Shown piece by piece: positions 7,734 through 47,526 of a stretch of DNA of 47,526 nt. The translations under genes and the position numbers were made by a program. Positions within the stretch are counted from its first letter, which is position 1. Each line of letters opens with the position of its first letter. The DNA is taken from contig NZ_CAJGWQ010000016.1 in the NCBI RefSeq assembly GCF_904842695.1, positions 1-47,526 of the forward strand. The letters run 5' to 3'. Under the pieces are notes generated by a model that saw only the letters and a list, made by a program, of their open reading frames with translations, did not search any database and was not told where the DNA came from. This stretch comes from Gulosibacter hominis (GTDB lineage: Bacteria > Actinomycetota > Actinomycetes > Actinomycetales > Microbacteriaceae).

Positions 7734-7807
<74 letters not shown>

Positions 7808-11351: not shown

Positions 11352-11386
11352 CTCTCCCTCCCACCCCTGCACCCTGCCCAGCCCTG

Positions 11387-11593
11387 CAGATTTTTGTTTC
11401 CTGACTGCATCCCAAAACTGAAAATTGTTTCCTGACTGCATCCGGATGCAGAAATTTGTTTCCTGGCTGCAAAACCGGCTGTTTCGGCTCAATCCGGCCC
11501 TAAATCCCCTGTTTTGCAGCCAAAATTCTGATTTCAGGAAACAAAAATCCGACGCCAGGAAACAAAAATCCGCAGGCCCGACGGTAACCGAGC
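11387..11593. repeat. Phased-box intergenic element, copy A (3 left + 2 right boxes)
   Basis: Left boxes (core GTTTCCTG) start at 11396, 11427 and 11458, spaced 31 bp. Right boxes (core CAGGAAAC, the inverse) start at 11535 and 11556, spaced 21 bp. The innermost boxes are 77 bp apart. The spacer holds an 11-bp perfect inverted repeat, GGCTGCAAAAC (11465-11475) / GTTTTGCAGCC (11511-11521). The right flank through 11593 is identical to copy B, and CAGCCAAGCAGC recurs at 11635. Frames are open on both strands here but look like a by-product of the repeats. It lies between the helicase terminator and the SixA gene. Confidence 0.9.
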
Positions 11594-12229: not shown

Positions 12230-12249
12230 CTTGCCCGCGCGCTACTCGC

Positions 12250-12581
12250 ACGCACCCGCCGCATAGCCGCCTCTGCCCCGCGCACTGCAGCAGATCGCTC
12301 AAGCCGCGTAGCCGCACCGCCCCCGCGGAATTTTGTTTCCTGACTGCATCCCGCTGCGGAATTTTGTTTCCTGGCTGCATCCCAAAACTGAGATTTGTTT
12401 CCTGGCTGCAAAACCGGCTGTTTCGGCTCAATCCGGCCCTAAAACCCCTGTTTTGCAGCCAAAATTCTGATTTCAGGAAACAAAAATCCGAGACCAGGAA
12501 ACAAAAATCCGACGCCAGGAAACAAAAATCCGCAGGCCCGACGGTAACCGAGCCAGGCACACGCCCAGACAGCCAGGCAGC
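12250..12581. repeat. Phased-box intergenic element, copy B (3 left + 3 right boxes)
   Basis: Left boxes start at 12335, 12366 and 12397 (31-bp period). Right boxes start at 12474, 12495 and 12516 (21-bp period). The inner spacing is 77 bp. The inverted repeat is GGCTGCAAAAC (12404-12414) / GTTTTGCAGCC (12450-12460). The left flank beginning at 12250 (ACGCACCCGCCGCATAGCC) matches the left flank of copy C, and GCCGCACCGCCCC precedes the first box in both. CAGCCAGGCAGC at 12570-12581 is the presumed right edge. It lies between the SixA gene and the convergent aminopeptidase gene. Confidence 0.9.
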
Positions 12582-24693: not shown

Positions 24694-25827
24694 ATGTCGC
24701 AAGAACGATCACAGCTGATACAGCTGGCACGCGGATACCAGAGTGCCAGCCGCATCGAAAAGGGTGTCATCCTTGAGCATCTCCAGGCACAAACTGGCTG
24801 GTCACGAGACCACTGCCGACGAAGCCTTCGTGAGGCTGCAAACCCAAAAACTCGAACAGCTCCCGGCCGCCCCTCTGGAAGCCGAAAATATTCCACCAGC
24901 ACCACCACAGCACTCGAGCAGCTCTGGCACCTCGTGGGGCAACCCAGCGGACGGCGCCTCCAAGCGATGATGCCGCAGCTCTTGTACCGCCTCGACCGCC
25001 ACGGGGAACTGCGTGGAGAACTGGCCGACAACACGGTACGCAGCGAACTGCTCACTATGAGCTCAGCGTCGATCGATCGATACCTCCGAGCAGCACGAGC
25101 GAACAGCACACCGCAATCACAGCCGGAAATCAACGACTCTCTACAGCAGCGCCTGGCCGAGAACGAGCCCGTCAAAGAAGCCGGTATGTTTCGTCTGTGT
25201 GCTGCCGCCGGAAACAATCCAGAAAGTGGCTGCAGCCACATCCTTTCACTTGGTCTCTACGACAAGCTCACCGGTTGGCGCATTCGGGTAGCAACCACCA
25301 GCGCATCCCCACACCTGCTATTTCCACTGCTTGATCGCGCTTTGGAGGCGAATCCGGTCCCCTTCCGCAACATCCACGTTCACAGCGGCAGCGAACTATT
25401 GAATTTCTCGCTCATCAGCTGGGCTCAACAGCTCGGCATTGATGTTTCGCCGCCTAATTTCGCGACCACCAACGCCGCAGCTACGAGCGACTCTGCCCAA
25501 TGCAACTGCCACCCTTACGAACTAGCCATGTACAAACGAGAGGCACAGCTGCAAACTCAGCTATGGGAAGTGCTCGACGCTCGACACAATTATTTACTCC
25601 CAATCACGCGTGCCAAGTACAAGGTCTGGACAGGCAACGGTAGCGTCCGCGTATTCGATAACCCGCTCACTCCCCTAGAGCGACTTGAAGTCAGCGACAA
25701 CAGCGTACTCAGTGATGGTCTGCGCTCCCGTGATGAGCTCATCAATCCCGCTGCCATCGCCAGAGAAGTTGCCCGGCTACAAGCTGAGCTTGCCCTCGCA
25801 CGAGCCCAGCACGCACCCGCCGCATAG
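24694..25827 (+). CDS. Transposase-derived protein with lost DDE catalytic residues
   Basis: A 377-residue intact frame with GAGGAG upstream of the ATG. The N-terminus (residues 12-47, ARGYQSASRIEKGVILEHL and GWSRDHCRRSL) matches the helix-turn-helix start of ISNCY/IS481-like integrase-type transposases. The region LEQLWHLVGQPSGRRLQAMM to SSASIDRYLRAAR and the C-terminal INPAAIAREVARLQAEL also align with that family as I know it. The catalytic core is degenerate. The usual EADTVAHCGG is replaced by EAGMFRLCAAAG, and the D-containing DNGxEF motif by HVHSGSELLNF, so both catalytic aspartates are gone. No flanking inverted repeats are recognised. The stop codon lies inside the flank of phased-box element C. 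It is best read as a domesticated DNA-binding protein; a decaying transposase is the alternative. Confidence 0.7.
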   Translation: MSQERSQLIQLARGYQSASRIEKGVILEHLQAQTGWSRDHCRRSLREAANPKTRTAPGRPSGSRKYSTSTTTALEQLWHLVGQPSGRRLQAMMPQLLYRLDRHGELRGELADNTVRSELLTMSSASIDRYLRAARANSTPQSQPEINDSLQQRLAENEPVKEAGMFRLCAAAGNNPESGCSHILSLGLYDKLTGWRIRVATTSASPHLLFPLLDRALEANPVPFRNIHVHSGSELLNFSLISWAQQLGIDVSPPNFATTNAAATSDSAQCNCHPYELAMYKREAQLQTQLWEVLDARHNYLLPITRAKYKVWTGNGSVRVFDNPLTPLERLEVSDNSVLSDGLRSRDELINPAAIAREVARLQAELALARAQHAPAA

Positions 25828-26166
25828 CCGCACCGCCGCGCGCACTGCGCCAGCTCGCCCACGCCGCACCGCCCCTCAGATTTTTGTTTCCTGGCTGCAT
25901 CCCGTTGCGGAATTTTGTTTCCTGGCTGCATCCCAAAACTGAGATTTGTTTCCTGGCTGCATCCGGATGCAGAAAGTTGTTTCCTGGCTGCAAAACCGGC
26001 TGTTTCGCCTCAATCCGGACCCAAATCCCCTGTTTTGCAGCCAAAATTCTGATTTCAGGAAACAAAAATCCGAGGCCAGGAAACAAAATTCTGAGGCCAG
26101 GAAACAAAAATCCGCAGGCAAGCACACAGCAAGCAGCACAGCACAGCACAGCACAGCCAAGCAGCA
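25811..26166. repeat. Phased-box intergenic element, copy C (4 left + 3 right boxes)
   Basis: Left boxes (GTTTCCTG) start at 25886, 25917, 25948 and 25979 (31-bp period). Right boxes (CAGGAAAC) start at 26056, 26077 and 26098 (21-bp period). The inner spacing is 77 bp. The 11-bp inverted repeat is at 25986-25996 and 26032-26042. The left flank matches copy B from 25811, and the stop codon of the transposase-like gene (25825-25827) is within that match. The right flank is C/A/G-only sequence with CAGCA repeats, ending in CAGCCAAGCAGC (26155-26166). It is the largest of the three copies. Confidence 0.9.
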
Positions 26167-26197
26167 AAGCACGCACCACAACTAAACTGGCAGCATC

Positions 26198-27103
26198 ATG
26201 ACGCAGCGACTCTCCTCGGCCAGGTGGCAGCAACTCGCAGCCGAGCACGCGCACCGGGCAGACGCGCTCACCGCCGAGTACCGCAGCGCGCGCGCCGCGG
26301 GGCGCCGCCACGCCATCGACGACTTCCTGTTCACCTACTACTCTTACCGTCCCTCGGTGCTGCGCAAGTGGCATCCGGGCATCGGCACCGCTCTCTACGA
26401 CGCCGACGAGTATGCCGACAAGCGCTGGTACCGCACCAATACCGACGGGTCGGTGACGGTGGATGCGGCCGCGTTCCTGACCGACCGCGGGCACGTGGCC
26501 CGGCAAATACGCGTACTCAGCGAGGCGATCGCCGGCCGGCAACCACGTTTCAGCTGTTTCGGGCTTCACGAGTGGGCGATGGTGTACCGGCAGCCCGAAC
26601 ACCGCCACCCCATTCCGCTACGCCTCGGCCAGGCCGGCACCGACGCCGTGGTCGAATCGCACGACATCAACTGCACTCACTTCGACGCGTTCCGGTTTTT
26701 TACCCCGGATGCGCGACCGCTCAACCAGCTCCAGCCCACCCGTGCCACCCAGTGCGATCTCGACCAGACCGGCTGCCTGCACGCGAACATGGACCTCTAC
26801 AAGTGGGCCATGAAACTCGGCCCGCTCGTACCGGGCGACCTGCTGCTGGATACATTTGCGCTCGCCCGCGAAATCCGCTGGACCGATATGCAGGCATCTC
26901 CCTACGACGTCAGCGACTACAGCGTCCCCGCCATCGCCATCGAAACCCCGCAGGGCAAAGCCGAGTATGTGCAGCTACAGCGCAGCTACGCCGAGCGGGC
27001 GCAGCTGCTGCGCGGCCGGCTCATCGAGGTGATTCGGGCAGCCCAGCAAGCCGCCACCACCGAAACCGAGGGAGGTTCTCGGAACATTCTGGCCGCAGGA
27101 TGA
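26198..27103 (+). CDS. Conserved actinobacterial protein, often labelled 3-methyladenine DNA glycosylase
   Basis: A 301-residue soluble protein. Characteristic segments are DDFLFTYYSYRPSVLRKWHP, LHEWAMVYRQP, INCTHFDAFRFFTP, and CDLDQTGCLHANMDLYKWAM. I recall this family in many actinobacteria under the name 3-methyladenine DNA glycosylase, but I see no helix-hairpin-helix or other glycosylase signature, so function is unproven. Conserved His, Cys and Asp residues suggest an enzyme or metal site. The likely -10 box TAAACT (26183-26188) lies just after element C. The stop codon (27101-27103) falls inside a hairpin of the second repeat family. Confidence 0.75.
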   Translation: MTQRLSSARWQQLAAEHAHRADALTAEYRSARAAGRRHAIDDFLFTYYSYRPSVLRKWHPGIGTALYDADEYADKRWYRTNTDGSVTVDAAAFLTDRGHVARQIRVLSEAIAGRQPRFSCFGLHEWAMVYRQPEHRHPIPLRLGQAGTDAVVESHDINCTHFDAFRFFTPDARPLNQLQPTRATQCDLDQTGCLHANMDLYKWAMKLGPLVPGDLLLDTFALAREIRWTDMQASPYDVSDYSVPAIAIETPQGKAEYVQLQRSYAERAQLLRGRLIEVIRAAQQAATTETEGGSRNILAAG

Positions 27104-47431: not shown

Positions 47432-47526
47432 GTTCGGCAGTGACCTACTCTCCCACAAAGTCCCCCTTGCAGTACCATCGGCGCAAAAGCACTTAGCTAC
47501 CGGGTTCGGAATGTAACCGGGCGTAC
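47432..47526 (-). rRNA. 5S rRNA, 3' part
   Basis: The minus strand reads CCCGGTTACATTCCGAACCC, GAGAGTAGGTCACTGCC and GAAC at the end, the conserved 5S core and 3' stem. About 95 of the roughly 117 nt are inside the window; the 5' end is beyond the right edge. It implies a full rRNA operon to the right on the minus strand. Confidence 0.95.

Follow-up and report, generated by a model that had tools for sequence, protein, structure and literature searches.

The 47,526-bp stretch of Gulosibacter hominis DNA analysed here (the window) carries three arrays of short, regularly spaced inverted boxes between its genes, and the question is what these arrays are and what they belong to. We find that they are members of a family of 22 elements dispersed over the genome. 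Comparison of sequences leads us to propose, with a probability of about 0.6, that the 22 arrays are dispersed non-coding copies of the putative binding array of one gene on another contig, which codes for an AbiEi-DUF559 protein; the partnership would be like that of REP sequences with RAYT, with a different enzyme (see below).

The three elements of the window

The window is contig C16 of a genome of 2.34 Mb in 33 contigs (G000). Its three elements, which we number 19, 20 and 21, lie where an earlier note on this DNA had put them, all in the same orientation with the long arm on the left, and consist of 3+2, 3+3 and 4+3 boxes. The box is best given as the 10-mer TTGTTTCCTG. The 11-bp perfect inverted repeat that the earlier note had seen in the spacer is present, as GGCTGCAAAAC / GTTTTGCAGCC in element 21; its statement that exactly 77 bp lie between the inner boxes needs correction, as it is from start to start that the inner 8-mers are 77 bp apart (the 10-mers 79); 69 bp lie between the 8-mers. 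The features are listed below, with box starts from exact 10-mer matches and with E values for the covariance model R1, in which each of these elements is itself included.

11367..11393, forward strand: CTGC-rich flank on the long-arm side of element 19, reading inward (composition and tract scan)
11394..11565, forward strand: element 19 (3+2), between the DeaD helicase and histidine-phosphatase genes; box starts 11394/11425/11456, inverted 11535/11556; E 4.5e-28
12333..12525, forward strand: element 20 (3+3), with the histidine-phosphatase gene on one side and a convergent M1-type peptidase gene on the other; box starts 12333/12364/12395, inverted 12474/12495/12516; E 6.6e-28
25809..25883, forward strand: left flank of element 21, by eye resembling the left flank of element 20 (about 12248-12332); holds the stop codon of ORF 24694-25827
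25884..26107, forward strand: element 21 (4+3), four TTGTTTCCTG at 31-bp steps, a 79-bp core and three inverted CAGGAAACAA at 21-bp steps; box starts 25884/25915/25946/25977, inverted 26056/26077/26098; E 2.7e-27
25986..26042, forward strand: core palindrome of element 21, GGCTGCAAAAC at 25986-25996, a variable loop and GTTTTGCAGCC at 26032-26042; conserved in the 15-element alignment
26108..26180, reverse strand: TGC-rich flank on the short-arm side of element 21, reading inward (listing and composition; below the threshold of the tract scan)

By eye, element 20 looks like a mosaic of the other two, its left flank being common to it and element 21 and some 28 bp of its right flank to it and element 19. 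ORF 24694-25827, the stop codon of which is in the flank common to elements 20 and 21, codes for a 377-aa protein without a match in Pfam, NCBIfam or PADLOC, and ORF 26198-27103 (301 aa) directly follows element 21. The window also contains a tRNA gene (7734-7807) and a 5S rRNA gene (47432-47526), the latter cut by the window end.

Extent of the family

The family is larger than the three copies of the earlier note. Exact copies of TTGTTTCCTG number 101 genome-wide (49 forward, 52 reverse) and the reversed control has none, so the boxes are not a product of chance. Places were listed for 100 of them, and all 100 fall within 22 elements on 15 contigs; these are intergenic by a crude gene caller, a few overlapping the ends of predicted ORFs. 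The model R1, built from 15 of the 22 elements, recovers the same 22 in its own genome with no further match up to E 1 (of 861 candidates from a first look, 150 were scored; the 45 raw matches count both strands of the same elements). The earlier note had proposed such a search of the genome and its relatives: box spacing is regular in the copies that it brought out here, and among 149 other genomes of the family, under stricter filters, the model has no match. Likewise, the exact box pair is absent from 59 relatives, ten congeners included, and any role for the host would therefore be confined to this lineage. The pair does occur in 51 stretches of a genome-contig collection, nearly all from distant taxa and 46 of them with a single match, and in seven viral contigs.

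The elements have no DNA similarity to plasmids or phages that our searches could find and no credible match in Rfam (one microRNA model was below threshold, at E 0.088), and open-access literature searches returned no description of them or of bracketed DUF559 genes. As far as these searches go, the earlier view that no named element has this layout still holds.

Anatomy of the lattice

Each element consists of one to four exact long-arm boxes, a core, and one to three inverted short-arm boxes. Across the 22 elements, long-arm steps are 31 bp (26 cases) or 32 bp (11), and short-arm steps 21 bp (17) or 14 bp (2). Measured from start to start between the nearest exact boxes, the inner distance is 79 in 11 of the 22 elements and 78 or 80 in four; the other seven values are 65, 75, 90, 100 (twice), 111 and 122. 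If the distance is instead taken to the short-arm box that comes next on the regular lattice, or from a decayed inner box placed by hand, six of these become about 79 or 89/90, the latter one helical turn more; element 13, with 122, was left out. The numbers of boxes in the long and the short arm are positively correlated (r = 0.75); the commonest combinations are 2+1 and 3+2, with six elements each. Steps of 31 and 21 do hold for all three elements of the window, where spacing had been said never to vary; over the whole genome the lattice is tight without being invariant.

The core keeps GGCTGCAAAA ... TTTTGCAGCC around a loop that was measured in 20 elements: 14 loops are 43 bp long, three 44 and one 42, with outliers of 53 and 54 (+10 and +11). 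Loops of equal length have a median identity of 0.51, compared to 0.26 for shuffled sequence, and an identity of 0.98 in the element pairs 8/9 and 19/20. A loop length that stays constant while the sequence diverges, and that changes by about one turn, points to a protein bound to double-stranded DNA. Box words barely decay: there is a one-mismatch box on the regular lattice in element 11 and an overlapping one-mismatch word in element 13. The innermost long-arm box has been lost in elements 5, 8, 9 and 13, and in elements 8 and 9 the decayed box, placed by eye, is 21 rather than 31 bp from its neighbour. A test of divergence between boxes and spacers was set aside, as boxes chosen by exact match make it circular and one pair was misaligned.

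The elements could instead be a structured RNA, an attenuator or a bidirectional terminator that acts in transcripts, an explanation that we consider highly improbable. They do fold stably on both strands (z -7.9 and -6.4), and the preference for convergent gaps (see below) would suit a terminator, as would, speculatively, the inward-reading CTGC/C-rich tracts if they resemble Rho-loading sequence. The stable foldback, however, follows from the inverted boxes as such, and none of the 22 consensus pairs has changed on both sides among 15 sequences (covariation term 0.19; the invariant arms give little power there), which gives no indication that conservation acts on RNA structure. By eye, no T-run follows the stem, and a hairpin with a T-rich run behind it is already present before element 19; relative to tandem genes, elements are found in both orientations. 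The 31-bp units have a weak tendency to form mini-hairpins (mean MFE -3.3, versus -2.0 after shuffling, in 35 distinct units). Between the protein platform and the cruciform or RNA fold offered by the earlier note, loop lengths and the recurrence of the lattice with another word (see below) favour the platform, and the lack of covariation and of an Rfam match speaks against the fold.

Flanks and genomic placement

Many elements have, to either side, inward-reading stretches of 100-150 bp that are rich in CTGC and poor in A. In 151 kb sampled around elements, 29 of 33 such tracts overlap an element or lie within 200 bp of one; it may be speculated that they are scars of repeated local duplication. 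Flanking genes that were scanned are ordinary housekeeping, metabolic, regulatory or unnamed genes, plus the DUF559 gene. By the crude gene caller, the 20 element-bearing gaps comprise 10 convergent, 8 tandem and 2 divergent ones, against 2, 16 and 11, respectively, for the 29 other gaps of at least 100 bp.

Several counterparts of these gaps in congeners are free of elements. Matches to the UDG and amidase genes on the two sides of element 1 are 33 bp apart in congener G008 and about 375 bp apart here; the pdxT and M18 peptidase genes around element 0 are adjacent in G008 and separated by several hundred bases here; and behind purA the element is absent from the nine other congeners read, in which the next gene is often a different one. 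The insertions thus look recent on the scale of the genus. A target-site duplication was looked for at the two element-free gaps of G008, where the junctions are too diverged to call one. In G004 (L146), the gap after DeaD that corresponds to the gap of element 19 contains, by eye, a 2+2 inverted array of ACTAATACGCGCG with steps of about 19 bp.

Near-identical copies at different sites (pairs 8/9 and 19/20) and the empty gaps of G008 would also be expected if the elements were MITE-like copies of a transposon that has lost its transposase, the DUF559 gene being a passenger or a captured regulator. Transposon ends can be multi-site, and arms of several boxes recall such ends; moreover, ORF 24694-25827, beside element 21, has what we take to be a likeness to a decayed DDE-type transposase. 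Against this, elements differ in how many boxes they have at their outer ends, where terminal repeats would be fixed; no further copy carrying a gene was seen; a genome-wide search, which covered Y1 transposases, found none of these; and brackets with unrelated words track the DUF559 family across genera (see below). None of the flanking genes scanned matches a transposase family above the Pfam cut-off. We regard a MITE-like origin as quite doubtful.

A candidate partner gene and its protein

The candidate partner lies outside the window, on contig C11 at about 66533-67387, between elements 14 and 15, which differ in their loops and in their spacing, and has RmuC and PheT as neighbours. Its product combines an N-terminal AbiEi-type winged helix with a C-terminal DUF559/MTES_1575 endonuclease domain (Vsr-like, EDxHD-like). 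DUF559 is above the Pfam cut-off in all eight homologs examined and AbiEi_4 in four of them, the C11 protein staying below it (15.4 bits, cut-off 25); in PADLOC, the C11 protein matches AbiEi at 3.8e-6 and 'HEase' at 0.003, the latter model reaching 1.2e-7 with one homolog. Nuclease-type residues (E, D, ExD and H), together with two further D, are invariant in 23 aligned homologs. The homolog profile matches the PDB entries 3hrl (2.3e-10) and 3r3p, a 'mobile intron protein' (5.9e-9), which is presumably I-Bth0305I. AbiEi-DUF559 profile matches are found in 49 of 79 genomes of the class at E 1e-10, and two homologs on Tsukamurella plasmids are annotated by an automatic name alone, 'type IV toxin-antitoxin system AbiEi family antitoxin domain-containing protein'.

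MTES_1575_REase is described as a Vsr-fold domain in PMC3710099. According to PMC7319586, AbiEi-family antitoxins are autoregulators that bind paired inverted repeats, and one of them, with four repeats, gives four bound species.

In this genome two ordinary genes are bracketed by elements as well, a dehydrogenase (elements 8/9) and the histidine phosphatase (elements 19/20), so that, within this genome alone, the bracket around the C11 gene could be a coincidence. The link to the partner being weaker in a single genome, the case rests on repetition across genomes.

Bracketing of homologs in other genomes

We asked how often the same inverted 8-mer pair, with the same spacing, occurs within 600 bp on both sides of a homolog (strict test). 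The genus set consisted of 30 homolog loci in 11 genomes, from 40 matches listed, and the class-level set of 29 loci, with our own locus L287 left out and the self-overlap L292 not counted as bracketed. Strict bracketing was found at nine of the 30 genus loci and four of the 29 class-level ones, as opposed to none of 23 purA/DeaD loci and 7 of 10,000 random stretches; four of these seven are L165 (a gene of the AbiEi-DUF559 family), two L230 (duplicated coding DNA) and one L223. Further random sets gave 0 of 3000 and 6 of 10,000, the six being three L250 (an AbiEi-DUF559 family gene), one L165 (which encloses another gene of the family), one L230 (duplicated coding DNA) and one L204. By a relaxed test, 10 of the 30 genus and 14 of the 29 class-level loci are bracketed, compared to 1 of 600 and 14 of 3000 random stretches, the last value including true elements (L169, L165). 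Counts are to be read with the loci not being independent, as L264/L271 and L276/L283/L284 are near-identical orthologs.

The strict test was failed by 21 of 30 genus and 25 of 29 class-level loci, that of C11 among them; the C11 locus, the G002 locus and the G008 gene at 1800638 go uncounted, as they have arrays or unequal spacing on their two sides. By the relaxed test, neither of the Tsukamurella plasmid homologs is bracketed, nor is a homolog on a phage fragment. Box pairs stand on either side of all three homologs found in our genome and of all three in G008; each gene has a word to itself, although two of the G008 words share AACTGTC. Words vary from gene to gene (e.g., AAATGGCGA, GAACTGTCAC, GAATCTGTGC and CAAAATTGTG). 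Of 14 cassettes measured, 13 have a copy 10-187 bp ahead of the gene match and another somewhere from 16 bp inside to 75 bp beyond its end; the exception is the C12 cassette (L274), with copies 259 and 927 bp from the gene. A scan blind to genes, over 2 Mb from five congeners, returned three bracketed places; two enclose AbiEi-DUF559 genes (E 1e-9 and 5.7e-98, the latter gene being itself in the profile), and the third is duplicated coding DNA.

Dispersal, too, recurs with other words. G008 has an inverted-box family, CCAAACTGTCTCA ... TGAGACAGTTYGG, with 36 exact copies of AAACTGTCTCA genome-wide (control 0) and a start-to-start distance of 58 in 12 of 14 pairs listed from a 400-kb sample; the G008 gene at 1800638-1801435 lies between pairs that start at 1800437 and 1801462. 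The word of the C12 partner gene, CACCAACTTTGG, occurs in 10 exact copies, eight of which form four inverted pairs with a spacing of 60. All ten are on C12 (24797-60739), no farther than 36 kb from the gene, and the rest of the genome has none, which looks like a local spread.

Several further word families were seen in passing. A second dispersed family of G008, with the word GGCCCACTTCGCACA, forms tandem arrays (L162:4521-9187, L165:3499-5568, L168:3312-3563), which in L165 bracket another AbiEi-DUF559-type gene. Inverted pairs like TTGAGTGGTCA ... TGACCACTCAA in G007 (L202 near 9936, L204 near 13672, L214 near 19938) are probably yet another word family; our first detectors found no clear multi-box family in the sequence sampled from G001 and G007.

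The closest homolog of the C11 protein, G002:C232 (49% identical), has the same lattice made of a different word. To one side of the gene, past another reading frame and at a distance of about 1.1 kb, six CCGACTCTCCC are at 2745, 2777, 2809, 2888, 2920 and 2952 of L258, i.e., at steps of 32, 32, 79, 32 and 32; on the other side, near the stop codon, are four boxes at steps of 21, 111 and 21, one of them with a mismatch. These steps match the 31/32, 21, 79 and, once, 111 of the present family. CCGACTCTCCC is unrelated to TTGTTTCCTG and partly palindromic, which makes its orientation ambiguous. An equal lattice with an unrelated word near the homolog leads us to read the geometry as set by the protein.

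A proposed partnership of a nuclease and dispersed sites

The brackets around some AbiEi-DUF559 genes in related bacteria suggest that a nuclease and dispersed DNA sites of its own form a hitherto undescribed partnership. Several copies of the protein would bind the boxes by their winged helices, one per box, on one face of the DNA, and the arrays would spread with, or by, a C11-type protein: a nick or break at an array, followed by repair through copying, would leave non-coding copies at intergenic sites. We favour such nick- or break-driven copying by analogy with REP-RAYT pairs; binding, cutting, mobilisation and a role that may be selfish or useful are what we infer from the sequences.

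The main rival is a pure binding platform, regulatory or chromosome-organising. On this view the 22 arrays are sites at which the AbiEi-DUF559 protein regulates, insulates or bridges DNA, the boxes are maintained by selection on the host, and spread is incidental. Boxes that remain almost undecayed while loops diverge, helix-phased steps, the scatter over 15 contigs and the share of convergent gaps (10 of 20, against 2 of 29 others of at least 100 bp, by the crude gene caller) all agree with it, as does the autoregulation reported for AbiEi proteins in PMC7319586. Yet neither the box pair in 59 relatives nor the model in 149 family genomes has a counterpart, many cassettes have a second pair near the stop codon, which autoregulation does not need, and the nuclease-type residues are invariant in all 23 homologs. 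We consider it rather unlikely. Against the partnership itself stand the unbracketed homologs, which are the majority, and the brackets around two ordinary genes of this genome; neither an intermediate nor activity was seen, and the upstream pair alone could be an autoregulatory operator.

A wider form of the partnership is tentative, and we would put it a little short of even odds. It would be a class-wide actinobacterial system, in which each AbiEi-DUF559 nuclease, with a private word, binds and cuts the arrays that bracket it and break repair disperses the copies; words would diverge, the helical lattice set by the protein would stay, and this would be a new class of enzymes for dispersing palindromes. 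A fixed bond between gene and word, if true, would provide the AbiEi-DUF559 family with a target, with binding and cutting open to direct test, and the gene-specific words would be natural data on how a winged helix reads DNA.

Comparison with known systems

With moderate confidence we regard the system as new, since it fits none of the families tested (RAYT, AbiE, classical homing genes and Rfam). Similar to BOX, ERIC and Correia elements and to MITEs, the elements are dispersed, intergenic, palindromic and modular; we know of none among these with inward-facing helix-phased boxes or a bracketed nuclease gene.

The candidate partner family shares its N-terminal AbiEi_4-type winged helix with the type IV toxin-antitoxin system AbiE, and differs from it in the C-terminal nuclease domain of the candidate partner. 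A complete AbiE system was rejected: no gene for an AbiEii-type nucleotidyltransferase toxin lies beside the C11 gene, and none is annotated at the Tsukamurella plasmid homologs.

The catalytic domain is related to EDxHD homing endonucleases through its profile match to PDB 3r3p (E 5.9e-9), and mobility linked to a site-specific nuclease would be a similar trait. A classical homing gene splits its own target; in the cassettes read, whole palindromes remain on both sides of the gene and solo copies are dispersed, and this candidate was set aside.

The closest parallel that we draw is with REP/REPIN sequences and RAYT, a Y1 HUH protein: short intergenic palindromes in tens of copies, with a partner gene bracketed by its own sequence. 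Here, too, non-coding extragenic palindromes are dispersed (22 elements), the partner is flanked on both sides by its cognate palindrome (the C11 gene, and 9 of 30 genus homologs by the strict test), and the word differs from lineage to lineage. A Y1/RAYT partner is ruled out by PF01797, which has no match in this genome and matches 5 of 14 control genomes. The differences are in the candidate partner, a wHTH-DUF559 nuclease, and in the multi-box arms on a 31/21-bp lattice. If the partnership is true, it would be an independent parallel to REP-RAYT for how a bacterial gene and scattered palindromes persist together.
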